Positions 6,150 to 41,640 of a stretch of 44,074 nucleotides of DNA are shown piece after piece. Location: NCBI GenBank assembly GCA_930990665.1, contig CAKNQN010000013.1:1-44074 (forward strand), in the 5' to 3' direction. The notes under the pieces are model-generated. The model was not told the origin of the DNA. It searched no databases and saw only the letters and a list, made by a program, of their open reading frames with translations. The first letter of the stretch is position 1, and every line of letters starts with the position of its first letter. The translations under genes were made by a program, and so were the position numbers. This DNA comes from an uncultured Clostridia bacterium. Its GTDB lineage: Bacteria > Bacillota > Clostridia > Christensenellales > Borkfalkiaceae.

Positions 6150-6276
6150 CGCTCGGCGACGTCTGTCTGCAAACGGCATATCGGCTGACTTTCATTCGGC
6201 TGTATCTGTCTCCCCTTTCGCACATGGCGCATCAGAGCTCTTTTGCTCGGCGGTGCTTGTCGCCCCATTCGCACAT
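6150..6276 (-). repeat. 51-bp tandem repeat of the HxlR gene 3' end
   Basis: Read on the minus strand, the last codons of the HxlR gene beginning ATGTGCGAATGGGG (from 6276) recur 51 bp further on as ATGTGCGAAAGGGG (from 6225). A third, degraded copy starts near 6182. Fifty-one bases keep the reading frame. The gene's stop codon (6232-6234) lies at the end of the first unit. The second copy is diverged but alignable over about 40 bases. Confidence 0.75.
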
Positions 6277-6585
6277 TCCGTCGAGGATGGGCATGAGCGA
6301 TCTTCCGCGCTCGGAGAGGCTGTATTCGACTTTCGGCGGTATCTGGGGGTATTCTTTGCGCACGATGAGGTCGTCCGCTTCCAGTTCTTTGAGTGCGCAC
6401 GACAACGTCTTGTGCGTGATTCCCTTGATGTAGCGGTGCAGCTGGTTGTAGCGCACGACGCCGAATTCCATCAGGGTATATAAAATCGTCATCTTGTATT
6501 TTCCGTTGATCAGCGACAGGGTATAGCTGAACCCCGTATCGCACAGTCTTTCGCTCGCAATGCACCGGCCCTGCGTTTTTTCCAT
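6232..6585 (-). CDS. HxlR-family transcriptional regulator
   Basis: A 117-residue winged-helix regulator with the typical HxlR layout: an N-terminal Cys near CDTGFSYTLSLINGKYK, a recognition helix region GITHKTLSCALKELE, and a wing YPQIPPKVEYSLSERG. It is divergent from the two reductase genes, and a perfect inverted repeat overlaps the reductase promoter. HxlR proteins often sense electrophiles or formaldehyde-like stress, which fits control of flavin reductases; that is inference. AGAGGA precedes the ATG. The 3' end is followed by partial copies of itself. Confidence 0.92.
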   Translation of the reverse strand: MEKTQGRCIASERLCDTGFSYTLSLINGKYKMTILYTLMEFGVVRYNQLHRYIKGITHKTLSCALKELEADDLIVRKEYPQIPPKVEYSLSERGRSLMPILDGMCEWGDKHRRAKEL

Positions 6586-6641
6586 TTTCTTGTCCTCTCT
6601 TACGCTCTACTTTAGGATAGTATCGCACTTTTATGTGCGTA

Positions 6642-6683
6642 CTTGACAAATCAATTATATGGTATATAATAAGATTTGTCAAG
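6642..6683 (+). promoter_or_regulatory. Reductase promoter with 11-bp operator palindrome
   Basis: TTGACA (6643-6648) and TATAAT (6665-6670) are separated by 16 bp. The exact inverted repeat CTTGACAAATC (6642-6652) / GATTTGTCAAG (6673-6683) brackets the core promoter, so a bound HxlR dimer would block RNA polymerase. This is a strong operator candidate. Confidence 0.85.
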
Positions 6684-6703
6684 ACGGACAACGGAGGATT
6701 TTT

Positions 6704-7324
6704 GTGAAAGTTTTGATGATCAACGGCAGTCCGCATGAAAACGGGTGTACATATATCGCCCTGGCGGAAGTAGGTGAGGTGCTTGCAATGCACGGGATCG
6801 GAACGAAGATGGTGTATCTTGGCAAAAAGCCGATCGCGGGGTGTATTGCATGCGGCAAGTGTTTTGAAACGGGAAAATGCGTCTTTGACGATGCGGTCAA
6901 CGAAGTCTCGCGGGAGCTGGACGAATATGGCGGGATCATCGTCGGTTCGCCCGTCTATTATGCGGGGCCTTCCGGCCAGCTGACGGCTTTTCTCGACAGG
7001 CTGTTCTACCCGAACGAGGGCAGGCTGGCGGGAAAGCTCGGGGCGGCGGTGGTGTCGTGCAGGCGGGGCGGCGCGAGTGCGGCGTTCGACAGGCTGAACA
7101 AATATTTTCTGATCTCGAACATGCATGTGGTCGGCTCGCAGTACTGGAACCAGGTCCACGGCTTTACGCCGGAGGACGTGCGCAAAGATCTGGAAGGCTT
7201 GCAGACCATGCGTACGCTGGGCGAGAACATGGCCTGGCTCTTGAAGTGTATGGAAGCGGGCAAAAAGGCGGGCGTGCCTTTCCCCGTGTATGAGCCGCGG
7301 GTACGCACGCATTTTATCCGTTAA
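6704..7324 (+). CDS. Flavodoxin-like NADPH-dependent FMN reductase
   Basis: A 206-residue flavodoxin-fold protein. The FMN phosphate loop is INGSPHENGCTY (residues 6-17), and a CIACGKCFETGKC stretch is typical of iron-sulfur-flavoprotein-like or NADPH-dependent FMN reductases of anaerobes. GSPVYYAGPSGQLTAFLDR is the second flavin loop. The GTG at 6704 is chosen because CGGAGG (6692-6697) precedes it and upstream in-frame codons overlap the promoter. It probably reduces quinones, flavins or electrophiles under HxlR control. The four-cysteine pattern is compact and may bind metal or be redox-active. Confidence 0.88.
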   Translation: MKVLMINGSPHENGCTYIALAEVGEVLAMHGIGTKMVYLGKKPIAGCIACGKCFETGKCVFDDAVNEVSRELDEYGGIIVGSPVYYAGPSGQLTAFLDRLFYPNEGRLAGKLGAAVVSCRRGGASAAFDRLNKYFLISNMHVVGSQYWNQVHGFTPEDVRKDLEGLQTMRTLGENMAWLLKCMEAGKKAGVPFPVYEPRVRTHFIR

Positions 7325-7341
7325 AGAAAGACAGATTTGGA

Positions 7342-7372
7342 CCGGCGATGCGCCGTAAAGGCGCATCGCCGG
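7342..7372 (+). other. Intercistronic hairpin between the two reductase genes
   Basis: A perfect 13-bp stem CCGGCGATGCGCC / GGCGCATCGCCGG with a GTAAA loop and no T-run. It is more likely an mRNA-stabilising or processing hairpin than a terminator. Confidence 0.6.
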
Positions 7373-7408
7373 AATACAGATACGATTCAACAAAAAGGAG
7401 AAAGGATT

Positions 7409-7954
7409 ATGTCTAAGAAAATTGTTGTGATCACGGGAAGTCTGAGGAAGAACGGCAACAGCTTTGCCATGACCGATGCGTTTATCCGTGCGGCAGAGGC
7501 GAAGGGATACACTGTGACGAGGTTCGATGCGGCATTCCGCAAAGTGGGCGGATGCCACGCCTGCGAAACCTGCTACAAGTCGGGCAAGGCGTGCAGTTAT
7601 GACGACGATTTCAATGCCCTGGCGCCGCTCATTCTTGAAGCGGACGCCGTTATATTTACCACGCCCGTTTATTGGTATTCTTACCCGGCACAGATCAAGG
7701 CCGTCATCGACAAGCTGTATTCCCTCTGCGTGGGCGGAAAGGAAGTGGCGGGCAAAGAGTGCGCCCTCATCACCTGCTGTGAGGAAGAGGATGTGACGGT
7801 GATGAACGGCGTGCGCCTGCCCTATGAACGCACCGCCGCGCTCCTGCAGTGGAAGTCGGTCGGCGAAGTGCTGGTTCCCGGCGTGCTGCGTGAAGGCGAC
7901 ATCGAAAAGACGGACGGCTGCCAAAAAGCTGCCGCACTCGCGGAAAAGCTGTAA
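7409..7954 (+). CDS. Flavodoxin family protein
   Basis: A 181-residue paralogue of the preceding gene's fold. The FMN loop TGSLRKNGNSF is at about residues 9-19, then GGCHACETCYKSGKAC (again a Cys-rich loop) and TTPVYWYSYPAQIKAVID. It probably works as an FMN-dependent NAD(P)H oxidoreductase alongside its neighbour. AAGGAGAAAGG precedes the ATG. The C-terminal sequence (QKAAALAEKL, stop) is repeated in frame 51 bp downstream. Confidence 0.88.
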   Translation: MSKKIVVITGSLRKNGNSFAMTDAFIRAAEAKGYTVTRFDAAFRKVGGCHACETCYKSGKACSYDDDFNALAPLILEADAVIFTTPVYWYSYPAQIKAVIDKLYSLCVGGKEVAGKECALITCCEEEDVTVMNGVRLPYERTAALLQWKSVGEVLVPGVLREGDIEKTDGCQKAAALAEKL

Positions 7955-8005
7955 AAAAGAAAAGACGGCCGCCAAAAAGCTGCCGCCCTTGCGGAAAAGC
8001 TGTAA
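7905..8005 (+). repeat. 51-bp tandem copy of the flavodoxin gene 3' end
   Basis: The final codons from AAAAGACGG to the stop (7952-7954) reappear at 7960-8005 with a 3-bp deletion and few substitutions. The second copy again ends QKAAALAEKL plus TAA, exactly 51 bp later and in the same frame. Confidence 0.9.
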
Positions 8006-8019
8006 AACAAAGAGGAAGA

Positions 8020-8042
8020 GGACCCCGGTTCAGCCGGGGTCC
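8020..8042. terminator. Bidirectional hairpin between convergent genes
   Basis: A 9-bp perfect stem GGACCCCGG / CCGGGGTCC with the LysR gene's stop codon (complement of 8030-8032) inside the 5-nt loop. T-rich sequence follows in both directions. It probably terminates both the reductase transcript and the LysR transcript. Confidence 0.7.
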
Positions 8043-8932
8043 TGTTCTGTTTCCGCCACGATCGCCCGCAGCCGATCGAGAAAGATCTGCGCGGGCCGCG
8101 AAAAGACGGCATATTTTTTCCAGACGAGGTCGAGATGCGTCCGCAGGGAGGGGTAGAGGGGCCTGAAACACAGCTCGCTTTCTCCCGTCGTGTTGATGAG
8201 GCCGCCCAGCCCCAAAGCGTAGCCCATGCCCGCCTTTACGAGCAGGCTGGCGTTGTAGAGCAGGTTGTATTTCCCTTTGACGGCAAGTGCATTTGCGCTC
8301 TCTCCGAACCAGGAATATACGCGGCTTCCCTTCGTAAGCGCCTGCATCGAGCACAGGAGTGGCTTGTCCGTCAGGTCCTCTTTGGCGATGCGTTCCTTTT
8401 GGGCGAGCGGACTGTCTTTGCGCATCAGTACCCCCCATTCGTCCGAAAGGGGAAGACGCAGAGAATTGTATTCGGAAAGATCGGGCAAGTCGACCACGAT
8501 CCCGAAGTCGAGCAGCCCCTTGTTCAGCTTTTCGAGGATGTCGCCCGCGTCGCCGCTGATAAACTGGAATCGCACGGAAGGATACTCCCGCTGTACCGCA
8601 CAGGCCGCCCGTGCGACGGTGATCACCGAATAGCTCTCTCCGCCGCCGACGATCACTTCGCCCATCACTTCCTCGGGCGGAGCCGCGATCTCCGCCTGCG
8701 TCTTTTCGTAGAGCGCGAGCATCTCTTCCGCCCGCTTTTTCAGCAGCATTCCCGTCTCCGTCAGCGTGATCTTGCGGCTCCCGCGCGTGAACAGCGGCTG
8801 CCCGATCTCCTTTTCGAGATTCTGCATCTGCTTGGAAAGGCTGGGCTGCGATATGTACAGCCGCTCCGCCGCCTTCGTGATACTCTGTTCCTGCGCCACG
8901 GCGATGAAATACCGCAGTTCCCTCAGTTCCAT
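8030..8932 (-). CDS. LysR-family transcriptional regulator
   Basis: A 300-residue regulator. The N-terminal winged helix-turn-helix ([21 protein letters not shown] at the start, [13 protein letters not shown] recognition helix) is followed by a linker helix and a periplasmic-binding-like effector domain from about residue 90. The ATG at 8932 gives the standard LysR start and has GGAGAAAGGG upstream; an earlier TTG at 8947 is less likely. It is divergent from the acetyltransferase-hydrolase pair with a dyad in between, so it probably controls them. The effector is unknown. Confidence 0.93.
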
Positions 8933-8970
8933 TCCCTTTCTCCGCAAGTTTTTCTTCCATTATACCAGAC

Positions 8971-9043
8971 AAAACCATAGCCGTCAACTATGTTTTTATA
9001 TTCCATATAAGTATTTGACATGGTTTTATGAATGTCCTATAAT
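8971..9043 (+). promoter_or_regulatory. Consensus promoter with LysR-type dyad
   Basis: TTGACA (9015-9020), 17 bp, TATAAT (9038-9043): a full consensus promoter. Upstream lies the dyad AAAACCATAG (8971-8980) / CTATGTTTTT (8988-8997), one mismatch, placed where LysR proteins usually bind between divergent genes. Confidence 0.8.
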
Positions 9044-9164
9044 GAGGTCGAAAAAAGGAAAGCGCCGCTACGCCGAAGCGGCGGAGTCCCTCGGCCTCGG
9101 CGGAAAGGAATGGCTTTCGGAAAAGTATTCAGACAAGGATTTCTGCGGCGGGAGGAGAAAGACA

Positions 9165-9734
9165 ATGACGACGAAAGAGTATATAGAATATATGAAGGAG
9201 AGGCCGTATCTGGAGGCGGGATCGGAGGTGCATATGTGCATGCATCGGGCGGCGGAGGAAGCGCGGCGGATCACGTCGCAGATCAACGGAACCTTTCACA
9301 CGGCGGAAGAGCTGCGTGCCCTCTTTTCGGAGCTGATCGGAAAGCCGGTGGATGAGAATTTCGGGCTCTTTCCGCCCGTCTATTCCGATTTCGGAAAGAA
9401 TATTTCGGTCGGCAAGCGGGTGTTTATCAACGAAGGGTGCTGTTTTCAGGACCAGGGCGGCATCGAGATCGGGGACGACTGTCTGATCGGGCATCAGGTC
9501 GTCTTTGCGACCATCAACCACGATGCGGCGCCCGAAAAGCGCGGAAACATGCTGTCTGCGCCCATCCGCCTGGGCAAGCGGGTCTGGATCGGCGCGCACG
9601 CGACCATCCTTGCGGGGGTCACGATCGGCGACAATGCGATCGTGGCTGCAGGGGCGGTCGTAACCAAAGACGTGCCCGCCGATACGATCGTCGGCGGCGT
9701 CCCCGCGCGGGTCATCAAAAAGATCAGAAAATGA
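9165..9734 (+). CDS. Sugar O-acetyltransferase (maltose/galactoside type)
   Basis: A 189-residue hexapeptide-repeat (left-handed beta-helix) acetyltransferase of the LacA/Maa family. An N-terminal Mac domain (residues 1 to about 60) precedes the helix. The catalytic His is in ATINHDAAP, and the C-terminus [13 protein letters not shown] is diagnostic. It transfers acetyl from acetyl-CoA to sugar hydroxyls. The ATG at 9165 is chosen over upstream in-frame codons because GGAGGAG (9151-9157) precedes it; the longer frame runs across the promoter. It is probably co-transcribed with the hydrolase 82 bp downstream. Confidence 0.93.
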
Positions 9735-9816
9735 GCGCCGCACAGGTGCGCGATCAATCAAACGGCATTGCCGCACGGCTGAACCCTTTCGGCCGGTAAA
9801 AAAGGAGGATCGAAAG

Positions 9817-10791
9817 ATGGAAGAGCAAAAACTGCAATGGACGGAAGAATGGGACAAGACCTTTCCCGAGAGCGATCGGACGGAGCACACGAAGGTGGCC
9901 TTTCATAACCGATACGGCATCACGCTTGCCGCAGATCTGTACCGTCCGAAGGGGGCGGAAGGAAAGCTGTCTGCCATTGCGGTCGCGGGGCCTTTCGGGG
10001 CGGTCAAAGAGCAGGCGTCCGGCCTGTATGCGCAGAAGCTGGCGGAAATGGGTTTTCTGACGATCGCCTTTGACCCGTCCTTTACGGGCGAAAGCGGCGG
10101 CGAGCCGCGGTATGTGGCGTCGCCGGACATCAATACGGAAGATTTCTGCGCGGCTGTGGATTATCTTTCCGTGCGGGAAGACGTCGACCCCGGGCGCATC
10201 GGGATACTCGGCATCTGCGGCTGGGGCGGAATGGCGCTCAATGCGGCGGCGATCGATACGCGCATCAAGGCGACGGTCTCCTCGACCATGTACGACATGA
10301 GCCGCGTCATCGCGAACGGGTATTTCGATTCCATGAGCGAAGAGGACCGCCAGGCTCTCCGCCGCCGGCTGAACGCACAGCGCACCGCCGATTATCGGAA
10401 CGGAAGCTACGCGCTCGCGGGTGGCGTCGCCGACAGCGTTCCGGAGGACGCCCCCTTCTTTGTCAAGGATTATTACGATTATTACAAGACGAAGCGCGGC
10501 TATCATCCCCGCTCACTGAATTCCAACGGGGGCTGGAACGTGACTTCGGCTCTCTCCTTTCTGAATATGCCCCTGCTGACGTACATCGGGGAGATAGAAA
10601 ACGCCGTCCTCGTCATCCACGGGGAGAAGGCGCATTCCCGCTATTTCAGCACGGATGCCTTTGCAAGGCTCAAAGGGGATAACAAGGAACTCCTGATCAT
10701 ACCCGGTGCGGTTCATACCGACCTGTACGACAATCTTTCCGTGATCCCGTTTGAAAAGATCGCAAGTTTCTATCGCCGTTATCTGCAGTGA
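9817..10791 (+). CDS. Alpha/beta hydrolase with cysteine nucleophile
   Basis: A 324-residue alpha/beta-hydrolase. The nucleophile elbow is GICGWGG, with C134 where most relatives have Ser; dienelactone-hydrolase-like and YcjY-type proteins share this. A catalytic His is probably in PGAVHTDLYD near the C-terminus, and an insert at about residues 150-235 forms a cap. No signal peptide is visible, so it should be cytoplasmic. AAAGGAGG precedes the ATG. Pairing with a sugar acetyltransferase suggests esterase or lactone hydrolase activity on an acylated small molecule, but the substrate is unknown. Confidence 0.85.
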   Translation: MEEQKLQWTEEWDKTFPESDRTEHTKVAFHNRYGITLAADLYRPKGAEGKLSAIAVAGPFGAVKEQASGLYAQKLAEMGFLTIAFDPSFTGESGGEPRYVASPDINTEDFCAAVDYLSVREDVDPGRIGILGICGWGGMALNAAAIDTRIKATVSSTMYDMSRVIANGYFDSMSEEDRQALRRRLNAQRTADYRNGSYALAGGVADSVPEDAPFFVKDYYDYYKTKRGYHPRSLNSNGGWNVTSALSFLNMPLLTYIGEIENAVLVIHGEKAHSRYFSTDAFARLKGDNKELLIIPGAVHTDLYDNLSVIPFEKIASFYRRYLQ

Positions 10792-10871
10792 GCGGAAAAT
10801 TTCCGCTTTTGCGATCGTTCCGATCGGTTCCGGCATTCTCATGCCTCTTTTGTTAACAGTTTTTTTCAATT

Positions 10872-10915
10872 ACAGCGCTTCGGAGGTTTTTCTCGGAAGC
10901 GCTGTCTGTTTTTTT
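10872..10915 (+). terminator. Intrinsic terminator after the hydrolase gene
   Basis: A 10-bp stem ACAGCGCTTC / GAAGCGCTGT followed by a T7 run. A shorter hairpin GCGGAAA / TTTCCGC at 10793-10807 directly follows the stop codon. The rest of 10792-11130 holds the MarR promoter; no gene is seen in it. Confidence 0.85.
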
Positions 10916-10954
10916 AGCCTTTATCGTTGGGTTGAAAATTGTTTTGCCAAACAG

Positions 10955-11012
10955 TTGACAAAAATGTAGGATGATAAAATAAATCGTATGCGATGTATCG
11001 TATACGATTTAT
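10955..11012 (+). promoter_or_regulatory. MarR promoter with 11-bp operator palindrome
   Basis: TTGACA at 10955-10960 is followed by AT-rich candidates for the -10 box (TAAAAT at 10975-10980 or ATAAAT at 10979-10984). An exact inverted repeat ATAAATCGTAT (10979-10989) / ATACGATTTAT (11002-11012) overlaps the -10 and start region, with a smaller palindrome CGAT-GT-ATCG in its centre. This fits autorepression by the MarR protein. Confidence 0.75.
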
Positions 11013-11130
11013 AAAGGCAGCCGAATTGCCGGCCTGTCCGCAAAAGAGGGAAGCGGCGGGATGCCGGGCGATGGTGCGGCCGGATCGGGCGAGAAAGAGC
11101 GCGCAAAAAATAAAAAAGAGAGGAATGTAT

Positions 11131-11574
11131 ATGATCGAATTATCACAGTTCAAAACGGCGACTTTATTGGTAAAGATAGGGAATGCGGTCACCTATTACA
11201 GAAACAGAAAGATGGAAGACCTGGATCTGACGTCCGTCCAGAGCGATGTGCTGATCGACATATTGCGTAATCCTGGGATTACGGCCAGTGAAATCAAGGA
11301 GCATATACAGTTGTCGCAGTCGACGGTGGCGGGAATCATCGGGAGATTGGAGTGTAAAAGGCTGATCAGCAAAGTAGTCGACGAAAAGGACGGGAGGAAA
11401 GTGATCCTATATCCGGCCGAACAGGGGAGAGGGCTGGAAGAAACTCTGAAAGCCATAGCAGTGGAGACGCAGGAATTTTTATTGGAAGGGATGGACGAGA
11501 ACGAACAGGCGGAGTTTGCCCGTCTTTTGGAGAAGTCCCTGAACAACCTGAATCGGGTGCGCAATAATAATTGA
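11131..11574 (+). CDS. MarR-family transcriptional regulator
   Basis: A 147-residue winged-helix regulator. The DNA-binding core is ITASEIKEHIQLSQSTVAGI, followed by the wing KVVDEKDGRKVILYPAEQG and a C-terminal dimerisation helix. The ATG at 11131 is preferred over one at 11125 because AGAGAGG needs about 7 bp spacing. It lies 22 bp upstream of the MATE gene and probably represses the whole operon, as MarR proteins often do for drug exporters. Confidence 0.92.
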   Translation: MIELSQFKTATLLVKIGNAVTYYRNRKMEDLDLTSVQSDVLIDILRNPGITASEIKEHIQLSQSTVAGIIGRLECKRLISKVVDEKDGRKVILYPAEQGRGLEETLKAIAVETQEFLLEGMDENEQAEFARLLEKSLNNLNRVRNNN

Positions 11575-11596
11575 ACGGGCAGGAGGTCAAAGCAAA

Positions 11597-13568: not shown

Positions 13569-13593
13569 CAATTGCAGAAAAAACAGTTACAAT
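13565..13593 (+). promoter_or_regulatory. V-type ATPase operon promoter
   Basis: TTGACA (13565-13570), 17 bp, TACAAT (13588-13593). The -35 box overlaps the stop codon of the MATE-kinase gene, so the ATPase operon can be transcribed independently of the exporter. Confidence 0.8.
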
Positions 13594-13628
13594 AAAAAGG
13601 TAAGGAATGCAAAAAGGAGAGATCGGTC

Positions 13629-14189: not shown

Positions 14190-14200
14190 CGGGGTGGAAA

Positions 14201-14725: not shown

Positions 14726-14731
14726 AACCAT

Positions 14732-20238: not shown

Positions 20239-20676
20239 ATGGAACTACAGTTTATCGGCATGGCGTGTGCTCTGGGCCTTGCGGCCATCGGCTCGGCGTT
20301 CGGCGCGGGGTATGCGGCCATGGCATCGGTCGGTGCATGGAAAAAATGTTACGCGAGCGGAAAACCCGCGCCGTTCATGATGGTTGCCTTTTCCGGTGCG
20401 CCGCTGACGCAGACCATCTACGGCTTTCTTTTGATGAATTTCATCCGCAGCGCATACGGCTCGGGAGCCGCCTCACCGACGCTGTGTATGTTCGTGGGCA
20501 TCTTTGCAGGGCTCGCGATCGGGCTTTCGGCGCTGTTCCAGGGCAAAGTGGCCGCCGCCGCGGCCGATGCGCTCGGCGAAACGGGCAAGGGCACGGCCAA
20601 CTATTTCATCGTCATCGGTATCGTGGAGACGGTCGCCCTGTTCACCCTGGTCTTCGGTCTGCTGCTGTTGCAGTAA
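20239..20676 (+). CDS. ntpK: V-type ATP synthase subunit K (rotor proteolipid)
   Basis: A 145-residue four-helix proteolipid, a double hairpin as in sodium-pumping V-ATPases. T57 and Q58 (APLTQ), Q101 (FQGK) and E130 (IVETVAL) correspond to the sodium-binding T64, Q65, Q110 and E139 of Enterococcus hirae NtpK. The ring may therefore use sodium rather than protons; this is inferred from ligand conservation only. It ends the operon, and its last 14 codons plus stop recur three more times downstream. Confidence 0.95.
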   Translation: MELQFIGMACALGLAAIGSAFGAGYAAMASVGAWKKCYASGKPAPFMMVAFSGAPLTQTIYGFLLMNFIRSAYGSGAASPTLCMFVGIFAGLAIGLSALFQGKVAAAAADALGETGKGTANYFIVIGIVETVALFTLVFGLLLLQ

Positions 20677-20880
20677 ACAAGGCTCCGTGTTTTGCGCTCG
20701 CCCTGTTGCCCCAGGCATTCGGCCTGCTGCTGTTGCAGTAAACAAGGCTCCGCGTTTGTCGCCCGCCCTGTTGACCCCGGCCTTCGGGCTCCCGCAGTTG
20801 CAGTCAACAAGGCTCCGCGTTTGGCGGTCGTCCTGTTGCCCCTGATCTTCGGATGCACGCTGTTACAGTGAGCGCGGAAT
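20634..20880 (+). repeat. 65-bp tandem repeat, four copies of the subunit K gene end
   Basis: Copies begin at 20634, 20699, 20764 and 20829 (exact 65-bp period). Copy 1 is the real gene end ALFTLVFGLLLLQ-stop. Copies 2-4 still encode ALLPQAFGLLLLQ-stop, ALLTPAFGLPQLQS and VLLPLIFGCTLLQ-stop, each in its own frame. Copies 1-3 share a linker close to ACAAGGCTCCGCGTTTG. Because 65 is not a multiple of three, the copies are in different frames. Confidence 0.93.
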
Positions 20881-24260: not shown

Positions 24261-24353
24261 GATTAAACCGATTTGCTGCAATAAACAGATCTGCGTCAAT
24301 ATCGTCTGCCTTTCCGGCAAATCGTGACAGCCGCGGGCCGCAGAGTTTACCCC

Positions 24354-24512
24354 GCGGCGCACGGGCGAGCGGAAAAGGGGCAAGGATGTCGCCGCGAGCG
24401 CCGCTTGTCATAAAAGTTACCCTTGCGGCGCACGGGCGAGCGGGAAAGGGGGCAAAGATTTCGCTTCGAGCGCCGCTTGTCATAATAGTTACCCTTGCGG
24501 CGCACAGGAGGG
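24354..24512. repeat. 71/72-bp intergenic tandem repeat, two and a half copies
   Basis: The segment starting CGGCGCACGGGCGAGCGG recurs at 24355, 24426 and (partly) 24498. Each unit contains GCGGCGC and, about 40 bp later, GCGCCGC, so it can fold on itself, and ends TTGTCATAATAGTTACCCTT or a variant. It lies in the gap 24209-24632 before lgt, which otherwise holds only a terminator and the lgt promoter. I recognise no known element and see no gene end duplicated here. Confidence 0.9.
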
Positions 24513-24566
24513 GAAAAACGGATAAAAAATTTTCGCCGAAAATTGCTTTTCCTTTGCCTGCAAATG

Positions 24567-27172: not shown

Positions 27173-27752
27173 GAAGTTTACCCAACAGGAAATGGAAAAG
27201 CTGATCGCGGGCATCCGCGAGGCGTATGAGATCAAGATCCGCCAGCTCAACTATCGGCTGGACGGTCTCACGGCGGAGAACCGCAGCCTTCGCGCCAGCA
27301 TTGCCGAGTACAAGGAGCGCGAGGGGCGCGTGGGGCGCGCCATTCTGGATGCGGAAGAGAAGGGGGAGGAGATCCGCGCCTTTTACCGTGCGTCTGCGGA
27401 GACGGAGTGGAAAAATCTTCGCCTGTTTGCGGACAAATGGAAGAGCTTAGCCGCGCAGATGGCGGACGTTTTGCCGCGCGAGTCGAAAAAATACGGCGAT
27501 CTGGCGGGTGATCTGGCGGCGCTTCTCGGGATGGAGGCGAACCGGATGGGGGCGGAAAAAGGGGAAAAGGCGGACACACAGGACGCCGTCTCGCCCGAAA
27601 AATTCGACCCGCAGGCCGTAATCGGAAAGTACATGGAGAGCGAGGAGGAGAACGGCTTCAATCTCGACGACGTGCTCAACCCGAAGGGGGACCTCGATCT
27701 GGCAAAACTATGCAAAAACCTCGGCCTGATGGACGAGGACGAAGGAGAATAA
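27165..27752 (+). CDS. Coiled-coil protein, DivIVA-like (unknown function)
   Basis: A 195-residue soluble, acidic protein. Residues of about 5-55 (MEKLIAGIREAYEIKIRQLN, then LDGLTAENRSLRASIAEYKE) form a coiled coil resembling DivIVA-type or cell-division helical proteins. The middle is helical with W and K residues; the tail is strongly acidic (EDEGE). It overlaps pncB by 8 bp and ends 1 bp before lspA. The resemblance to DivIVA is weak; it could be any cytoskeletal or scaffold helix protein. Confidence 0.75.
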   Translation: MAKKFTQQEMEKLIAGIREAYEIKIRQLNYRLDGLTAENRSLRASIAEYKEREGRVGRAILDAEEKGEEIRAFYRASAETEWKNLRLFADKWKSLAAQMADVLPRESKKYGDLAGDLAALLGMEANRMGAEKGEKADTQDAVSPEKFDPQAVIGKYMESEEENGFNLDDVLNPKGDLDLAKLCKNLGLMDEDEGE

Positions 27753-27753
27753 G

Positions 27754-28335
27754 ATGGGCTATTTGTTGCTGTTCCTGCTCGTGCTCTTTGCTGACCAGCT
27801 GACGAAGGCGATCGCTTTCGCCGTGATGGGTTCGGAAAGTTCCCTGCATACCTGGATCCCGAATTTTCTCGGTATCCGCACCACGGTCAATACCGGCGTG
27901 TCGTTCGGGTGGTTCGGAGACGAACCCTGGGCGATGCCCGTATTTATCGCGATCACGGCGGTGGCGCTCGTCGTGTTCTTTATCTTTTTTCTCAAGGCTG
28001 CCAAGCGCAAGCATTTTCTGCGGGTAGCGCTCGTGCTCATCATGGTGGGCGCGGCGGGCAATCTCATCGACCGCTGTGTCATGGCGGGCGTGCGCGACCT
28101 GATCTGGATGAATTTCGGATTCGTCGATTTTTCCAATAACCTTGCGGACATCGCCATATTCATCGGGGCGATCATGTTCATCCTGGCGCTGTTTTTCGTC
28201 GATGACGATGCCGTGTTCCGTCCCAACAAGAAGAAGGAGGAGCAGGAACTGGAAGAGGCCGCCACAGATCTCACCGAGCGCGCCGCGAAGGCGGAGAAGT
28301 CGGAGGAGGATGTCGGGCCCCTTTCGGACGGCTGA
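27754..28335 (+). CDS. lspA: Lipoprotein signal peptidase (signal peptidase II)
   Basis: A 193-residue aspartyl protease of the membrane with four helices that cleaves lipidated prelipoproteins after Lgt. The catalytic pair is D106 (GNLIDR) and D132 (NNLADIAIF). NTGVSFGWF replaces the more common NTGAAF. It has a long charged cytoplasmic tail of about 40 residues (KKKEEQELEEA), as does Lgt in this window. Lgt and LspA in one operon couple consecutive maturation steps. Confidence 0.96.
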   Translation: MGYLLLFLLVLFADQLTKAIAFAVMGSESSLHTWIPNFLGIRTTVNTGVSFGWFGDEPWAMPVFIAITAVALVVFFIFFLKAAKRKHFLRVALVLIMVGAAGNLIDRCVMAGVRDLIWMNFGFVDFSNNLADIAIFIGAIMFILALFFVDDDAVFRPNKKKEEQELEEAATDLTERAAKAEKSEEDVGPLSDG

Positions 28336-28338
28336 GCG

Positions 28339-29265
28339 ATGGAGAATCGGACATTTACGGCGGAGGAGGCCTGCCCGCGGCTGGACGTGTTCCTGTCCGA
28401 AAAGCTGGGCGTGACGCGCTCGGCCGCCAAAAAGATCATCGACGGGGGACTGGTGACGGTGGGAGGAAAGCCCGCCAAGGCCTCGCATCCCGTCGCCGCA
28501 CACGAGATCGTGCAGGCGGAGATCCCCGCGCCGCAGGCGCTCGATCTTACCCCGCAGGATATCCCCATCGGCATCGTGTACGAAGACGAGGACATCGCCG
28601 TCGTCGACAAGCCGCAGGGGCTGACCGTGCACGCGGGCAACGGCAACCTTACGGGCACGCTCGTCAACGCGCTTTTGTACCGTCTCAAGAGCCTGAGCAC
28701 CATCAACGGGGTGGTGCGCCCGGGCATCGTGCACCGCATCGACAAGGACACGTCGGGGCTTCTCGTCGTAGCCAAGAACGACGCGGCGCATCTTTCCCTT
28801 TCGGCGCAGATCGCCGATAAGACCTGCTGCCGCGAATATCTCGCGCTGTGCGAGGGGATTTTCAAGGAAGACAGCGGCTGCATCCGCACCTACATCGGCC
28901 GCGACCCGCGCGACCGCGTGCGGATGGCGGTCGTCCCGAAGGAAAAGGGTCGGCTGGCGGTCACCCATTACGAGGTGGTAAGGCGATATCCCCAGGGCTA
29001 TACGCTCGTGCGTTTCCGCCTGGAAACGGGCCGCACGCACCAGATCCGCGTACATTGCCGCAGCATCGGTCATCCCATCGTAGGGGATCCCGTCTACGGC
29101 ATCAAGAATCAGAAATTTGACCTGAACGGCCAGCTTTTGCACGCTTGCCGCCTCACGCTCAATCATCCCCGCACGGGCGAGCGCATGACCTTCGAGTCGC
29201 CGCTTCCGCCGCATTTCGTGCGCGTTCTGGATATTCTCGAAAGGGGCGCGAAGGGAAAGGAGTGA
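28339..29265 (+). CDS. RluD-family 23S rRNA pseudouridine synthase
   Basis: A 308-residue RNA-modifying enzyme. The N-terminal S4 domain (residues 10-70) precedes the synthase domain; the catalytic Asp is D137 in HRIDKDTSGLLVVAKND, and ETGRTHQIRVHCRSIGHPIVGDP is the family signature. It typically follows lspA in Firmicutes. The exact target uridines cannot be assigned. Confidence 0.95.
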   Translation: MENRTFTAEEACPRLDVFLSEKLGVTRSAAKKIIDGGLVTVGGKPAKASHPVAAHEIVQAEIPAPQALDLTPQDIPIGIVYEDEDIAVVDKPQGLTVHAGNGNLTGTLVNALLYRLKSLSTINGVVRPGIVHRIDKDTSGLLVVAKNDAAHLSLSAQIADKTCCREYLALCEGIFKEDSGCIRTYIGRDPRDRVRMAVVPKEKGRLAVTHYEVVRRYPQGYTLVRFRLETGRTHQIRVHCRSIGHPIVGDPVYGIKNQKFDLNGQLLHACRLTLNHPRTGERMTFESPLPPHFVRVLDILERGAKGKE

Positions 29266-29267
29266 CA

Positions 29268-29804
29268 ATGAAGATCAAAGGAAAACTCATGGATGCGTCC
29301 GGCATGGAGAACACCTTTCAGCGCCTCGCACTGCAGGTCATCGAACGCAATTCCGGCGTTAAAGACGTCGTCCTGATCGGGATCCGCACGCGCGGGATCA
29401 CTGTGGCAAAGCGGATCAAGGCCTGCCTCGATGCGCTCGAGGGCGGCAGCGTGCCGCTGGGCGTGTTCGACATTTCCCTCTATCGCGACGATCTGGAAGA
29501 CCTCTCTTCCGAAGTCGTGTTTTCGGGCAGCGAGGTAAACTTTCCCGTCGACGGAAAGACGGTCTTGTTGTGCGACGACGTCGTCTATACCGGCCGCACG
29601 GTGCGCGCCGCCATTTCCGAGATCATGTCGATGGGCCGCCCTGCCAAGGTACAGCTTCTGGCGCTCGTCGACCGCGGCCACCGCGAACTTCCCTTCAAGG
29701 CGGATTTCATCGGCAAAAACGTGCCCACTTCCGCACGGGAGGGGATCGCCGTGCGCTTTGCGGAAAACGACGGCGAAGATGCCGTCTATATCTACGACAA
29801 GTAA
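29268..29804 (+). CDS. pyrR: PyrR bifunctional regulator/uracil phosphoribosyltransferase
   Basis: A 178-residue PRTase-fold protein. The PRPP-binding loop is VLLCDDVVYTGRTVRAA (residues 99-115), and the RNA-binding surface includes RTRGITVAKRI. PyrR attenuates pyr operons by binding their leader RNA. No pyr biosynthesis gene follows here, so it acts in trans. Length is normal. AAGGAG precedes the ATG at 29268. Its last codons YDK-stop are repeated five more times downstream in frame, with the stop changed to TCA in three of them. Confidence 0.95.
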   Translation: MKIKGKLMDASGMENTFQRLALQVIERNSGVKDVVLIGIRTRGITVAKRIKACLDALEGGSVPLGVFDISLYRDDLEDLSSEVVFSGSEVNFPVDGKTVLLCDDVVYTGRTVRAAISEIMSMGRPAKVQLLALVDRGHRELPFKADFIGKNVPTSAREGIAVRFAENDGEDAVYIYDK

Positions 29805-29916
29805 TTTTTGTTTTACGACAAGTCATTTCTGATTTACGACAAATCATTTTTGCTTTATGACCAGTCATTTATGATTTATGACAAATAATTCTTGATGCAA
29901 GACAAATAATTTTCAG
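29791..29916 (+). repeat. 21-bp tandem repeat, six copies spanning the pyrR stop codon
   Basis: Units start at 29791, 29812, 29833, 29854, 29875 and 29896. Each contains ACGACAAGTAATTTTTG or a variant. The codon at the stop position is TAA in units 1, 5 and 6 but TCA in units 2-4, so if the pyrR stop were read through translation would continue to the TAA at 29886-29888, adding 28 residues of a YDKSFLI-like heptad. In the rest of the gap to 30274 there is a terminator, a vague 54-bp repeat near 30058-30135 and a promoter. Confidence 0.93.
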
Positions 29917-32954: not shown

Positions 32955-33036
32955 GAACTGTAACAGGCGGAAACGGGGGCAAAGCGGCAAAACGGCCTCC
33001 GTGCATCCGGTAAAGGTACAGGGAGGCTGTTTGAAT

Positions 33037-34269: not shown

Positions 34270-34285
34270 CGTATCCCAAAAAATG

Positions 34286-34346
34286 AAACACAAAAAGCGG
34301 GGCGCGCGGAAGGAATTTCCTTCCGCGCGCCCCGCTTTTTGTGTTT
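34286..34346. terminator. 61-bp near-perfect palindrome, bidirectional terminator
   Basis: Arms of 30 bases (34286-34315 and 34317-34346) pair around a single central T. The core is GCGGGGCGCGCGGAAGGAA and its complement, bordered by A and T runs, so both the spoIVA and the WYL transcripts would terminate. Confidence 0.93.
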
Positions 34347-34389
34347 TGTTTCAACCTTGCCCCCGCTTTTTGTCCTTTATTTCAACCTT
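34331..34389 (-). repeat. 31-bp repeat of the WYL gene 3' end
   Basis: On the minus strand the gene end AAGGTTGAAATAAAGGAC followed by AAAAAGCGGGG recurs 31 bp on as AAGGTTGAAACAAAACAC plus AAAAAGCGGGG. The stop codon TGA is inside the unit. The second copy runs into the palindrome. Confidence 0.85.
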
Positions 34390-35311: not shown

Positions 35312-35361
35312 CTTCCACCTCTAAAAAATTTTTTGTTTTTTCAAAAATATTTTAATATATA

Positions 35362-35376
35362 TGACAATATTTGTCA
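35362..35376. promoter_or_regulatory. Palindrome between divergent WYL and hypothetical genes
   Basis: TGACAA-TAT-TTGTCA in an AT-rich region. It could be a WYL operator. No standard spacing of -35 and -10 boxes was found for either gene. Confidence 0.5.
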
Positions 35377-35420
35377 AGTTTTCTGTGATAGAATGAGGGC
35401 GTAAACAGGAGGACAAGCGT

Positions 35421-36083
35421 ATGTTTTTCAAAAAAAGCCATTTTGGGAAAGAGCGCACGGTATTTTTGCCCGCGGAGAAAGCGGACGGGCGGGTGCGTAT
35501 CCGTGAGAACGCCTTTGCGAGTGCGCATATGGCGTCTGCCCGTCTGCAGGCGGCGCGCACGCGTTGTGCGGCCGCACGGCTCTTTGAAAGGCCTGAAAAG
35601 GAAGAGGCCGCCGCAGCGCTTTTTGCCGTCGTGCGGCTGGAAGATCGTCGGAAAGCCGCCCGCGCGTCCGTCCGTTCCTCAGCGGTAGGACAGGACGTGT
35701 CTTCCGTCCGTGCGTACCGTTACTGCGCGGCGGAGCAGAACGTGTCTTCCGTCCGTGCGGCTCGTTTCTCCGCGGTGGCCGGGCAGAGGGGCGCGCCTTC
35801 TTCCTTTGCGGAAAAAGAGGAGAAAAGCATTGTATCGCGCCAGGCAGAAGAGTCGCGCGCGTTTTCTTCGGAACAAAGCAAAGTTCGCGGCGGGGCGGAG
35901 GACCTGCGTAGGCGGGAGGACCTGTATCGGAGGGAAGACGCGTCGTGGTTTACGGGCAAAGAATTGGCGCGGCAGGAGCGCAGCGAAGAAGGGGAAGAGT
36001 GCGTCGATCTGCTCGACGAGCTGATTGCCGGCCTGCGGAATGTGCGAGGGCTGCGTGTACGCGGCTCCGAGGGAGAAGATTAA
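35421..36083 (+). CDS. Low-complexity basic/acidic hypothetical protein
   Basis: A 220-residue protein with no recognised domain. The centre has a 15-residue repeat (DVSSVRAYRYCAAEQ / NVSSVRAARFSAVAG; 45-bp period) and a six-residue repeat (EDLRRR / EDLYRR). It is rich in Ala, Arg and Glu and ends in an acidic helix with DLLDELIAGLRNVRGL. AGGAGG at 35408-35413 gives an ideal ribosome site, so it is probably translated. It could be a fast-evolving surface or spore protein, but it has no signal peptide. Confidence 0.6.
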   Translation: MFFKKSHFGKERTVFLPAEKADGRVRIRENAFASAHMASARLQAARTRCAAARLFERPEKEEAAAALFAVVRLEDRRKAARASVRSSAVGQDVSSVRAYRYCAAEQNVSSVRAARFSAVAGQRGAPSSFAEKEEKSIVSRQAEESRAFSSEQSKVRGGAEDLRRREDLYRREDASWFTGKELARQERSEEGEECVDLLDELIAGLRNVRGLRVRGSEGED

Positions 36084-36195
36084 ATCCGAAGGTTTGCCTT
36101 CCGTTTTTCAAAGCTGCGGCAGAAAGTTAGCCGTAAATTATATATAGTATAAGTTTTTGTAATATCCTGGAATGGCGGAAACGGCGGCAGAATGT

Positions 36196-36224
36196 TTGCA
36201 AAACGGCGCAAATCGTGTTAAAAT
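36196..36224 (+). promoter_or_regulatory. Promoter of gdhA
   Basis: TTGCAA (36196-36201), 17 bp, TAAAAT (36219-36224) with a TG one base before it. Confidence 0.8.
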
Positions 36225-36226
36225 AA

Positions 36227-37594
<1,368 letters not shown>

Positions 37595-37643
37595 TTTCAT
37601 AGCTTATCCTTCGGAAAAGGAAAATTTTTCGAACGGACATACA

Positions 37644-37678
37644 CAGGGCGGAGAACAAAAATTCTCCGCCCTGTTTTT
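37644..37678 (+). terminator. Terminator of gdhA
   Basis: A 12-bp stem CAGGGCGGAGAA / TTCTCCGCCCTG followed by T5. In the gap 37595-37935 the only other item found is the promoter at 37750. Confidence 0.9.
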
Positions 37679-37749
37679 ATAAGTCGAAACAAGACAGATT
37701 GCATCGGTCCCATCTTGCCAAAAATTTTTGGAAAAGAGTTTTTCGGTTC

Positions 37750-37778
37750 TTGCAAAAACCGGGAGTCTGTGCTATACT
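37750..37778 (+). promoter_or_regulatory. Promoter of the large lipoprotein gene
   Basis: TTGCAA (37750-37755), 17 bp, TATACT (37773-37778). Confidence 0.75.
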
Positions 37779-37935
37779 GAAGTCGTCGCAAGGATATGTT
37801 GCATGAGGACAGGCGGAAAGGGCGGATATGGATACGGGCAGCATTTGTCCGGGCGGCAGACATGGCGGGCGGAGCGGCAGAGGCGGACGAACATTCGCCG
37901 CAGAAGATACGCCTGCGGTAAGGAGTCGGGAGAAC

Positions 37936-40900
37936 ATGAAAAGGAAATTTCTGTTGGTTTTGGCGGCCATCTTGGTGGCGGTATCCTGCGCGGCGGGCCT
38001 GACGGCTTGCGGCGGGACTGGCGAAGAGCAGCCGCAGCATGTACATACCCTTGTCTGGCATAAGGCAAAAGAGCCAGCCTGCACCGAAGACGGCAACCTC
38101 GAATACTGGACTTGTTCGGAGTGCGGGAAATACTTCCTGGATGCGGAAGGGAGCAAGGAGGTCACAGATCCGGATACTCTGCTTTTGCCCGGGTCGCATT
38201 CTCTGGTATATTATGAGGAAAATGAGGCGAGCTGTACAAAGGACGGCAATATTGCCTACTGGCAATGTGAAAAGTGCGGGAGATATTTTGCGGACGAGAA
38301 CGGGGAAAAAGAGCTTACGTCGGTGACGATCGAAGGAAAACACGAGCTTCAACATTTTGATGCGCTGGCTCCGACCTGCACGGAGGGAGGGAATTCCGAA
38401 TACTGGCAGTGCGTAAAATGCTACTTATTGTTCTCGGATGCAGACGGAACGGAGCCGATTGACAGTGCGACTCTTCCTGCCGCAGGGCATTCGATGGATT
38501 ACTCTTCCGAAATTCTTCCCTCCTGTACCCAGAGCGGGCAATACGGGTTTTATCATTGCACCGTCTGCGAAAAAGATTACTGGGATGCGGAAGGGGTGAA
38601 CCCTGTTGCAAGTGCGGAAGATCTCATCATTCCCGCGAACGGTCACCGGATGAGCTATACCGATTATCTTGCGCCCACCTGTACTTCTTCGGGAAATCTC
38701 GAAAACTGGTATTGTGTCGATTGCGGCAATTATTATTCGGATGAGTCCGGCACAATGCTGATCGAGGGGAGCGTTTATCTGGATCCGCTCGGGCACGAAA
38801 TGATCTTTCACGCAGCGAAGGATGCCACATGTACGGAAGACGGCAACAGCGCATATTATGAGTGCACGCGGTGCCATCTGTATTTTCAAGACGAGCAGGG
38901 TACTTTGCAGGTGCCCGGGGGCAATCCGTTCATTCCGGCCGCACATCAGCCGCTGGTACAGGTTTCGCGCGTCGAGCCGACCTGCACCTCGGAGGGCTCG
39001 ATCGGATATTGGGAATGTCCGGCCTGCCACGATAAATTCTATGATTGGCTCGGAAATGAAAAGATCGAGGACGAGGCGGACATCGTTTTGCCGATGAGAG
39101 ACCATGGTCCGAGTTATAACGCGGCGAGTGCCGTAACCTGCACGCAGAACGGATACCGCGAATATTGGTATTGTTACAATTGCGGTCAGTATTTTGCGGA
39201 TGCAGAGGCGCAGACGGTGATAAGCTGGGAAGATATCGTGATTCCTGCGACGGGGCATGAAAACATGGAATACCACGCAGCCGTACAGCCGGGCTGCCTG
39301 ACAAAGGGGAATACTGAATATTGGTCCTGCCCCGACTGCGGAAAATATTTTTCGGACGAGAGCGGGAATACGGAGATCGCTGCGGATAGCTGGATCATTG
39401 CGGCGACGGGCCATACATATTCCGATGAATGGACGAAGGACGAATCCTTCCACTGGCATGCGGCCACCTGCGGCCACGACGAGGAGGTTTCCGGCAAAGA
39501 AGCGCATGACTTCCGCGACAGGGTGTGCACCGTCTGCGGATATACGATCGACTATACTGCCGGCCTGGAATATGTCCTGAACGAAGAGGGAACGGGGTAC
39601 GAAGTGAGTGGCATCGGGCTTGTTACGGATGAGGAGATCATCGTCCCGTCCGAACATCTCGGATTGCCCGTGACGGGGATCGCCGCATCTGCCTTCGAAA
39701 GCTGTAAGAGTTTATATAGCCTTGTCCTGCCGGACAGCGTGGTCACGGTCGGCGAGAAAGCCTTCAATTATTGCAGCAATCTTTCGGAAATAGCTTTCGG
39801 CGACAGTCTGACGGGCATAGCCGCATCGGCTTTTGCCGGCTGTGCATCGTTACAAGAGATCGTCTTGCCCGACAGTCTGGTAACGATCGGAGAAAAGGCT
39901 TTCTATCAATGCGAGAATTTGGCTGAAGTGACCTTCGGCAACGGCCTGCTCGAAATCGGTAACAGTGCGTTTTGTTTTTGCGGTGTGGAAAAGGTAGTCG
40001 TGCCCGACAGCGTTGTATCTATCGGCCAAAGCGCTTTCAGCAACTGCGTATCTCTCAGTGAACTCACGCTCGGCGTAAACCTGCGCGAGATCGGCTTGGA
40101 TGCTTTTTTCAGCAGTTATAATCTTTCAGTCCTCTATTATAATGCGGAATACGTTCCGAATTTTGATTACCAGAACGGCGTGTTTGACGAAGCGGGGCGG
40201 GATTCGGGAGGCGTCGTCGCAATATTCGGCGATACCGTGAAAAACATCCCCGACCATCTGTTCAGCGGTTATCTGAAAGGATCCAATATCAAAGAGATCC
40301 GCCTCAACGAGAATGTGGAACGGCTCGGTGCGGGCCTGTTTTCGGGTCGGGGATTGAAGGAGTTCCGCATACCTTCCGGGGTAAAAGAGATCGGAACGAA
40401 GGCCTTCGCCTACAATGATCTCACGACCATTACTATCCCCGAAAATGTGACTTTGATCGATGATAGCGCCTTCTATGAATGCAGAAGACTCATTGAGGTG
40501 TATAACAAGAGTTCTTTGGATATCAAGCCGGCGGACTGGCAGAATGGACATGTGGCATACTATGCAAAGAACGTCTATACGCCGACAAGCGGCTGTTCCA
40601 GGATCACAAATACGGAAGACGGATACCGTTTTTACAAAGATGATCGGTATGCTGCACTTTTTGACTATACGGGCACGGACGCAGATCTGGTGCTGCCGGA
40701 CGGGTTTGTGGCATGGGACGGAACGGAAGTCACATCTTACTATGTAAATGCGTATACATTCCAGGAGCGGGACGATATTCTTTCCGTCGTCTTTCCGGAC
40801 AGTGTTTCTTATATCGAACAAAATGCGTTCTATGCCAGCTCTGTCGAGAGCATTGTGATGAGTGTGTCCCTCGACCTTATCTACGACGGCGCGTTCGGCG

Positions 40901-41124
40901 GTTGTACAAACCTGACGCACGTGTATTACGAGGGGACGGCAGAGCAATGGGCGGAGATCACTTTCAGCGTGTGGGCAGAGGAATCCAATCAGGAGCTGAC
41001 AGAGGCGCCCCGTTCCTACTACCGCGCGGAAGATCCTTATCTGGACGGCACGGCAGTGGAAGGGGAAACCTATTGGTACTATGATACGGACGGTAAAACG
41101 CCCGTTCTTTGGACGGTTTCTTGA
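37936..41124 (+). CDS. BspA-type leucine-rich-repeat lipoprotein with His/Cys modules
   Basis: A 1062-residue surface lipoprotein. The signal peptide ends in the lipobox LTAC near residue 22. Residues of roughly 35-500 contain nine modules of about 50 residues, each starting with His and containing one Cys, then a CxxC (as in HTLVW...CTEDG...CSECGKYF); a tenth is degenerate (HTYSDEWTKDE type). From about residue 560 to the end run LRR_5/BspA repeats (AFESCKSLYSLVLPDSV and so on), closing with YWYYDTDGKTPVLW. Such proteins bind host or bacterial surfaces. ATG 37936 is chosen for AAGGAG upstream and the signal peptide. The 1-His-3-Cys modules could bind metal, which is unproven. Confidence 0.9.
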   Translation: MKRKFLLVLAAILVAVSCAAGLTACGGTGEEQPQHVHTLVWHKAKEPACTEDGNLEYWTCSECGKYFLDAEGSKEVTDPDTLLLPGSHSLVYYEENEASCTKDGNIAYWQCEKCGRYFADENGEKELTSVTIEGKHELQHFDALAPTCTEGGNSEYWQCVKCYLLFSDADGTEPIDSATLPAAGHSMDYSSEILPSCTQSGQYGFYHCTVCEKDYWDAEGVNPVASAEDLIIPANGHRMSYTDYLAPTCTSSGNLENWYCVDCGNYYSDESGTMLIEGSVYLDPLGHEMIFHAAKDATCTEDGNSAYYECTRCHLYFQDEQGTLQVPGGNPFIPAAHQPLVQVSRVEPTCTSEGSIGYWECPACHDKFYDWLGNEKIEDEADIVLPMRDHGPSYNAASAVTCTQNGYREYWYCYNCGQYFADAEAQTVISWEDIVIPATGHENMEYHAAVQPGCLTKGNTEYWSCPDCGKYFSDESGNTEIAADSWIIAATGHTYSDEWTKDESFHWHAATCGHDEEVSGKEAHDFRDRVCTVCGYTIDYTAGLEYVLNEEGTGYEVSGIGLVTDEEIIVPSEHLGLPVTGIAASAFESCKSLYSLVLPDSVVTVGEKAFNYCSNLSEIAFGDSLTGIAASAFAGCASLQEIVLPDSLVTIGEKAFYQCENLAEVTFGNGLLEIGNSAFCFCGVEKVVVPDSVVSIGQSAFSNCVSLSELTLGVNLREIGLDAFFSSYNLSVLYYNAEYVPNFDYQNGVFDEAGRDSGGVVAIFGDTVKNIPDHLFSGYLKGSNIKEIRLNENVERLGAGLFSGRGLKEFRIPSGVKEIGTKAFAYNDLTTITIPENVTLIDDSAFYECRRLIEVYNKSSLDIKPADWQNGHVAYYAKNVYTPTSGCSRITNTEDGYRFYKDDRYAALFDYTGTDADLVLPDGFVAWDGTEVTSYYVNAYTFQERDDILSVVFPDSVSYIEQNAFYASSVESIVMSVSLDLIYDGAFGGCTNLTHVYYEGTAEQWAEITFSVWAEESNQELTEAPRSYYRAEDPYLDGTAVEGETYWYYDTDGKTPVLWTVS

Positions 41125-41180
41125 TCGATGTATGCTGCGTTGTCAGGAAGGATTGTATTCTGACGCGCTGTATGAAATGC

Positions 41181-41214
41181 AAAAATGCCTTTGCGTTTTC
41201 GCAAAGGCATTTTT
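41181..41214 (+). terminator. Terminator of the lipoprotein gene
   Basis: A 14-bp stem AAAAATGCCTTTGC / GCAAAGGCATTTTT with a GTTTTC loop. Confidence 0.92.
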
Positions 41215-41300
41215 GCTAAAAAAATCAGCCGGCCGAGTTTTTCCGCATCGTTGCGGCACAGAAAAACACGGCCGTGCCGATTGTATTTTTACAGAAAAAA

Positions 41301-41640
41301 TGGCTCCCGTACGGAAGCCATTTTTATTTTTGCATTACTTTGTCATACCTTCCTGGACTGCAACGGCACAGAGGACGGTTGGGAAAGACCATGTTGCATG
41401 CGCCGCCCGTCGAAAAAAGGCTTCCAGACGGAAGCCTTTTTCTCTTTTCCGCGGCGCAACGGTTGGGAAGGACCATGTTGCTTGCGCTATCTGCCGAAAA
41501 AAAAGGCTTCCAGACGGAAGCCTTTTTCTCTTTTCGGCGGCGCAACGGTTGGGAAAGACCATGTTGCATGCGCCGCCCGTCGAAAAAAGGCTTCCAGACG
41601 GAAGCCTTTTTCTCTTCATTATTTTGTCATACCTTCCTGA
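41301..41640 (-). repeat. Tandem terminators with copies of the GGGtGRT gene end
   Basis: Three almost identical hairpins (core GGCTTCCAGACGGAAGCC at 41419, 41505 and 41589; period 84-86 bp) and a fourth variant at 41301-41320 follow the gene on the minus strand, each with a T-run. The linkers derive from the gene end: GGCGC, GCAAC, ATGGTC and ACCGTTGC recur in order. The last linker keeps TVLCAVAVQEGMTK-stop, almost the real C-terminus TVACAVAVQEGMTK. No gene other than this was seen in 41125-41618. Confidence 0.93.

Follow-up and report, generated by a model that had tools for sequence, protein, structure and literature searches.

Repeats at the gene ends of the window

The window analysed here is the whole of contig CAKNQN010000013.1 (C13; 44,074 nucleotides) of an uncultured Clostridia bacterium of the family Borkfalkiaceae, whose genome assembly (GCA_930990665.1; 1.50 Mb in 28 contigs) is 74% complete. 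It carries short repeats at or near the 3' ends of several genes, one of which encodes a GGGtGRT protein (PF14057, 657 bits; 41619..42623, minus strand) and has a 3' end that is proposed below as an integrase attachment site. A sequence-only reading of the window had described six gene ends as duplicated directly downstream, and five of them are indeed repeated at or near the end of the gene. At the end of the flavodoxin-like gene (FMN reductase, Pfam FMN_red), a 51-bp unit that includes 42 coding nucleotides with the stop codon is present twice (86%; 7913..8014, plus strand). The NtpK gene (ATP-synt_C) ends in 3.4 decaying copies of a 65-bp unit (20633..20852, plus strand), pyrR in 5.8 copies of a 21-bp unit (29793..29913, plus strand), and a WYL regulator gene in 1.9 copies of a 31-bp unit that also takes in half of a terminator stem (34330..34389, minus strand), all three being listed by Tandem Repeats Finder (TRF). 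Behind the GGGtGRT gene, and on the same strand, 2.9 copies of an 84-86-bp unit (41375..41616) lead to a displaced gene end of 15 codons with its stop (41335..41379) and to the terminator of that end (41295..41331); each unit comprises a terminator hairpin and a border in which inverted arms surround AT-GGTC, a spacer and ACCGT. The sixth case, HxlR, is marginal: the gene end (6247-6276) and its weak downstream copy (6196-6225; 6196..6276 together, minus strand) match over 30 nt with a score of 30, at the cut-off, and TRF does not list the repeat.

The same reading held that the repeated unit always includes the real gene end, which is so only by 8 coding bp at WYL and 12 at pyrR and does not apply to GGGtGRT, where the 86-bp array starts past the stop. 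Its statement that copies still encode the C-terminal peptide is nearly right for GGGtGRT (4 synonymous and 1 nonsynonymous codon differences) and flavodoxin (2 and 1), and fails for NtpK (1 and 5). The repeat units do differ between loci, as it had noted, and the NtpK array is unique in its own genome. The list of six loci was nevertheless selective, since the window also holds arrays away from stops: a 26-bp array at the contig edge that crosses no gene end (1..236, strand not assigned), a 72-bp array lying 138 bp past a stop and 100 bp before the next gene (24347..24532, plus strand), which is a counter-example to placement at stops only, and an in-gene array at 35672-35761. Most copies in the window are about 10-25% divergent, which speaks against assembly stutter, although a stretch of 72 nt is the same in two of the GGGtGRT units. 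Beyond the GGGtGRT array, and convergent with the gene, lies a large BspA-type leucine-rich repeat protein (37936-41124).

Placement of arrays across the genome

Placement was studied in the window together with 40 stretches of 20 kb from the same genome (844 kb), with genes taken from a home-made caller by which at least one window gene was probably mis-called (27676-29268), and with arrays detected by TRF (score at least 50, period 12-250). In addition, gene 3' ends were compared directly with the downstream DNA, and 5' ends with the upstream DNA. The comparison samples comprised eight congeners (1,200 kb) and nine other genomes of the order. The nearest relative was 82-84% identical in the DNA searched, and no conspecific genome was seen.

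A direct copy stands downstream of 18 of the 435 testable 3' ends and upstream of none of the 441 testable 5' ends (Fisher test, 3e-6; 5e-5 with the four of the window removed from the numerator only). In the congeners such copies were found at 3/598 3' ends and 1/600 5' ends, and in the rest of the order at 1/164 and 0/166. Inverted matches, all samples together, amounted to one at a 3' end and two at 5' ends. The closed intergenic regions of the own sample hold 64 arrays, of which 13 cross a stop, none a start only, one crosses both and 50 neither.

How far the 13 exceed expectation depends on the null model. Global placement of single units predicts 5.3 arrays at stops and 5.5 at starts (5.3 and 5.6 in a repeat run; p 0.001 for the stops), local placement 7.1 and 4.4 (p 0.011), and the unit null in which partial copies count 6.8 and 7.1 (p 0.014). 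Sliding whole arrays (70 noncoding arrays, with the same 13, 0 and 1 observed) predicts 17.9 and 9.9, so that the excess at stops disappears. With the window left out and partial copies counted, 10 arrays cross a stop where 5.9 are expected (p 0.058), and none a start where 6.2 are expected (p 0.003). Across all nulls, 4.4 to 9.9 start-only arrays were expected and none was observed. Among 46 arrays of the eight congeners, four cross a stop, none a start and two both, against expectations of 2.6 and 2.6; one of nine arrays in the other genomes of the order lies at a stop. Within genes, the period is divisible by 3 in 38 of 43 arrays (p 1e-13). The absence of arrays at starts is firm. Stops show a weak, null-dependent excess that does not go beyond about 2.5-fold.

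These figures bear on the suggestion of the sequence-only reading that a mechanism acts at the ends of transcripts, through termination or slippage, or that multiplied stop and terminator signals are selected. In its genome-wide form this account also covers slippage at the hairpins of terminators and conflict between replication and transcription. The asymmetry between 3' and 5' ends for which the reading had proposed a test does exist, and under the unit null convergent regions hold 6 stop-crossing arrays where 2.2 are expected. This figure nevertheless falls to 4 against 2.1 (p 0.14) when the window is excluded and partial copies are counted, most arrays cross no gene boundary at all, and the ordinary copies decay. 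Because the stop excess depends on the null, a mechanism of this kind is not needed for the five loci other than GGGtGRT; there may be a mild preference for stops, and as an explanation of the whole pattern we rate the transcript-end account as very unlikely.

The five ordinary loci

The codon differences between gene ends and their copies separate GGGtGRT from the remaining loci. Only copies alignable without gaps were compared, and pyrR and WYL overlap the coding sequence too little to count. Over all sampled genomes, gene-end copies outside GGGtGRT show 14 synonymous and 28 nonsynonymous differences, including those already given for NtpK and flavodoxin and the 1 and 4 of HxlR. Among relatives, an array crossing the stop was found at none of the 5 near-relative NtpK loci fetched, none of 29 pyrR loci and none of 11 WYL loci; arrays starting within 200 nt past the stop without crossing it occur in three pyrR and two WYL relatives. 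The flavodoxin copy was seen behind neither of two relatives' genes, either by eye or by TRF, which in that run missed the window's own array too and was therefore insensitive.

At these five loci the copies are arranged head to tail in a locus-specific unit, as in minisatellites, weakly so at HxlR, and the earlier statement that they are no mobile repeat family fits them. Tandem duplication by slippage would arise anywhere in the genome. A duplication spanning a stop would leave the gene and its stop intact in the first copy and survive, those spanning a start or breaking a frame would be removed, and the spare copies would then decay. Slippage combined with purifying selection at starts suffices for the HxlR, flavodoxin, NtpK, pyrR and WYL duplications, and the majority of the duplicated ends have the look of common tandem repeats left behind in a genome where arrays of this kind abound. 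This carries a warning, as an enrichment of repeats at 3' ends can come from selection at starts.

Copies of the GGGtGRT gene end

Within the genus, 27 GGGtGRT loci had enough flank to be searched over 600 nt downstream (three more were too short), and in 13 of them the final 26-47 nt of the gene, reaching the stop or missing it by one base, recur in that interval. A degenerate pattern allowing up to 2 mismatches found the GGGtGRT end in 37 of 40 genomes, with at least two ends in 18 of the 37, the own genome included. The copies share a contig with the gene and follow it, the exceptions being matches that could not be placed beside a gene, namely those of G005 (on contig C56) and G024 and the only match in G015. 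In the order sample copies were present at 2 of 27 loci (L318, from the genome of L085, and L327), two more loci being too short. The gene itself is split between contigs in four genomes (G184, G147, G055 and G029), in three of them within about the last quarter, which could mean that there are more gene-end repeats than were seen.

The codon set covers 15 loci (13 of the genus, L085 and L123; L074 was dropped as the same data as L232). Their 21 copies show 54 synonymous and 9 nonsynonymous codon differences, and 59 of the 70 base differences fall at third positions. The contrast with the ordinary gene ends is strong (Fisher test, 6e-8), although the test treats codons as independent and related GGGtGRT copies share changes that are not all separate events. 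In G016 and L085 every codon difference is synonymous (7/7 and 10/10). Copies of this kind were probably coding until recently. In L123, a Treponema genome from a metagenome, the GGGtGRT end is repeated past the stop (about 4000-4260; about four ends by eye), and the stop is enclosed in a hairpin with arms that vary in concert from copy to copy.

An order in which endings were added is suggested by G016, whose second unit bears the 3' untranslated region and terminator found in the first unit of the sister genomes G029, G031 and G019. The 62 nt past its second stop score 0.94 against unit 1 of G029, 0.87-0.89 against G031 and 0.75 against G019, while its first unit is closest to G013 (0.77) and G018. 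As the second unit of G016 matches the first unit of its sisters, a new ending appears to stand there before an older one. Such an arrangement could also come from homologous transfer between species, in which one exchange within the conserved body of the gene and another, out of register, within a unit would insert foreign endings with no integrase. The protein is conserved at 92-100% within the genus, and unit 1 of G016 resembles units of other species. Homologous transfer would, however, leave unexplained the first unit, the inverted-arm borders and the integrases found directly behind the gene end; we consider it rather doubtful by itself, and it may act together with an integrase route.

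Inverted-arm borders

The borders in the GGGtGRT arrays lie 74-133 bp apart, apart from five spacings of 301-418 bp, and in 36 of 37 of them a left and a right arm surround a core, AT-GGTC in most cases, and a spacer that varies; the border at 246 in G016 is without the right arm. The arms covary between species. In 17 distinct borders 157 of 187 cells are paired, against a shuffled mean of 137.9 and maximum of 152, and with one border per genome 186 of 198 are paired, against 159.5 and 175 (5000 shuffles each).

All six loci could instead be ordinary tandem duplications if the GGGtGRT quasi-palindrome were a template-switching hotspot (direct-inverted-direct) and array turnover made each copy the real end in turn. 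The gene itself carries CATGGTC-GGTAT-GACCGT or a similar sequence in several species, the layout is gene end, inverted arm, gene end, the arrays of G024, G013 and G031 are homogeneous, and the genus arrays lack visible integrases. The exclusively synonymous differences in G016 and L085, however, fit a long untranslated life poorly, a different unit holds the front position in G016, and other lineages have integrases at this very gene end. On this balance we regard template switching as unlikely.

Integrases and inserts behind the GGGtGRT gene

Outside the genus, the GGGtGRT end or a copy of it is immediately followed by a tyrosine-integrase gene or its remnant in eight places (L343 and L344 on one contig, L346, L364, L366, L141, L087 and L128). 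The viral records L364 and L366 have their integrase genes 93 and 135 bp past the end of the gene, in L141 the integrase is cut by the contig end, and in L087 a remnant follows the gene. In L128 the remnant follows a displaced copy that differs by 8 synonymous and no nonsynonymous codons over the last 15 (by eye); upstream of these, its border region contains a stop. On the viral contig IMGVR_UViG_3300018878_002442 there are two GGGtGRT ends, and behind each come a hairpin and a tyrosine integrase; a weak tail-protein relative lies beyond one of them. In the single-contig genome G070 an integrase lies behind the gene. Among 147 loci scanned, 10 combine the GGGtGRT end with an integrase relative, in a set that included known cases and so gives no frequency. 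Of 14 viral stretches, seven have GGGtGRT similarity and two of these the integrase; the integrase search of the viral_contigs set matched its own contig alone. Two loci were not counted as adjacent: in L089 the integrase relative is upstream of the gene, and in L324 a partial match lies about 0.9 kb behind it on the other strand. Six phage records match GGGtGRT, of which MT839063 and MT836003, which start with its tail, were dropped because the next genes look host-like by eye.

In G073, 3.07 kb separate two GGGtGRT ends and hold a phage-type holin gene (PHROG 13712) and a ToxN gene. The flanking repeat spans 277 nt at 95%, with 7 synonymous codon differences and one nonsynonymous, at the edge of the match. 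G073 thus shows direct repeats flanking an element with the gene left complete, as expected of an attachment site; in the window no large element is enclosed in this way. The ToxN gene of this insert stands beside three near-identical repeats (L339:2060-2720), the arrangement that a type III toxin-antitoxin system would be expected to show.

Proposed explanation

From the synonymous displaced ends, in the window as overall, and from the adjacent integrases outside the genus, it is concluded that the GGGtGRT 3' end would serve as an integrase attachment site, and that the earlier exclusion of a mobile repeat is probably wrong for this locus. Placement at the gene end is specific here, with site-specific integration as its best cause. 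Two causes, slippage duplication at the five ordinary loci and an integrase attachment site at the GGGtGRT end, make up the explanation that we consider probable. The last approximately 46 nt of the gene would be the attB of tyrosine-integrase elements, and each integration would provide an element-borne synonymous ending, a stop and a terminator, pushing the old ending downstream. The short units of the genus may derive from such elements by internal deletion and out-of-register recombination, leaving units that meet at inverted-arm borders, the putative crossover sites. The window array is probably a stack of such integration scars. A bolder version, in which the 74-133-bp units are gene-free mobile mini-cassettes stacked one before another at this single gene end throughout the genus by a recombinase acting in trans, is speculative and seems to us unlikely. 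Each cassette would bring a synonymous ending for the gene with its stop, in many cases a terminator, and a single border with inverted arms.

Several observations weigh against this two-part explanation. On the side of slippage, three of the four nulls leave some excess at stops, and the own genome is richer in 3'-end copies than the eight congeners (18/435 against 3/598; Fisher test, 5e-5), an excess that slippage leaves unexplained. On the side of integration, no integrase was seen by eye beside the arrays of the genus, where several contigs break off within the array or shortly after it; G016 is the sole genus genome with one on the array contig, about 22 kb off beyond the other end of the gene (by eye), and the own genome has a single integrase match, a fragment. 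The borders of the window are among the poorest, with 5-8 of 11 pairs in the register tested, and some copies resemble plain tandem repeats (L221, and the 116-118-bp units of G024). Among the 75 usable loci of the genome_contigs set (5 of 80 were too short), only L085, L123 and L074 have a copy within 600 nt. The displaced gene end of G070 was not found with the one pattern used, and besides L343 and L344 only L364 and L366, of the seven viral stretches with a GGGtGRT tail, carry this integrase.

If correct, this explanation would add GGGtGRT, a very conserved and widespread gene, to the integration hotspots of tyrosine-integrase elements in several lineages. It also allows neutral repeats at gene ends to be distinguished from the scars of integration by sequence alone, according to whether the changes in the copies are nonsynonymous or synonymous. 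Should the short units move alone, few site-specific mobile units would be smaller, and they would illustrate how a gene can change its ending repeatedly with its protein unchanged. No paper on GGGtGRT as an integration site was recognised in the literature searched on integration and gene-end duplication, which is no proof of absence, nor was anything on repeats at gene ends.

Comparison with known systems

The five ordinary loci are closest to bacterial minisatellites, or variable-number tandem repeats (VNTRs), for which repeats of 20 bp or more are treated as a class of variable segments (PMC2884548). The likeness lies in the locus-specific unit, with few diverged copies that are often intergenic; several units here differ in including a gene end.

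Dispersed repeats of the MIRU and REP type are also short units at gene ends, some of them with hairpins. The units described here share this position, but they vary by locus, and no GGGtGRT end was shown at an unlinked site in the 40 genomes, three having unplaceable matches. An interspersed structured repeat of about 230 nt (GTTCACGAAA-hairpin ... GGGCACAC ... TTCACC) was noticed by eye directly behind the stops of different genes in the genus, after GGGtGRT ends in L214, L215, L221, L231 and L236 and after pyrR in L047 and L049; in the own genome it is found at L021:10421-11043, in a family of 6 intergenic regions. It has no Rfam match, and none was obtained in any of the 10 sources searched.

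Integron cassettes with attC hairpins place the newest unit in front, have a folded border with bulged bases and are stacked serially. No integron integrase or cassette genes were noticed here, the integrases being listed only as PF00589, and attC boxes were not recognised by eye, with no attC model used; the likeness to the GGGtGRT arrays is in the newest unit in front, the folded border and the serial stacking. Finally, phage 21, which integrates in the 3' end of icd, replaces 165 bp there and thereby provides an alternative ending (PMC4129442). The gene concerned here is GGGtGRT, short units with terminators hold its stacked endings and the genus arrays have no visible integrase next to them, but the two cases would be alike in that an element supplies the gene with a new end.

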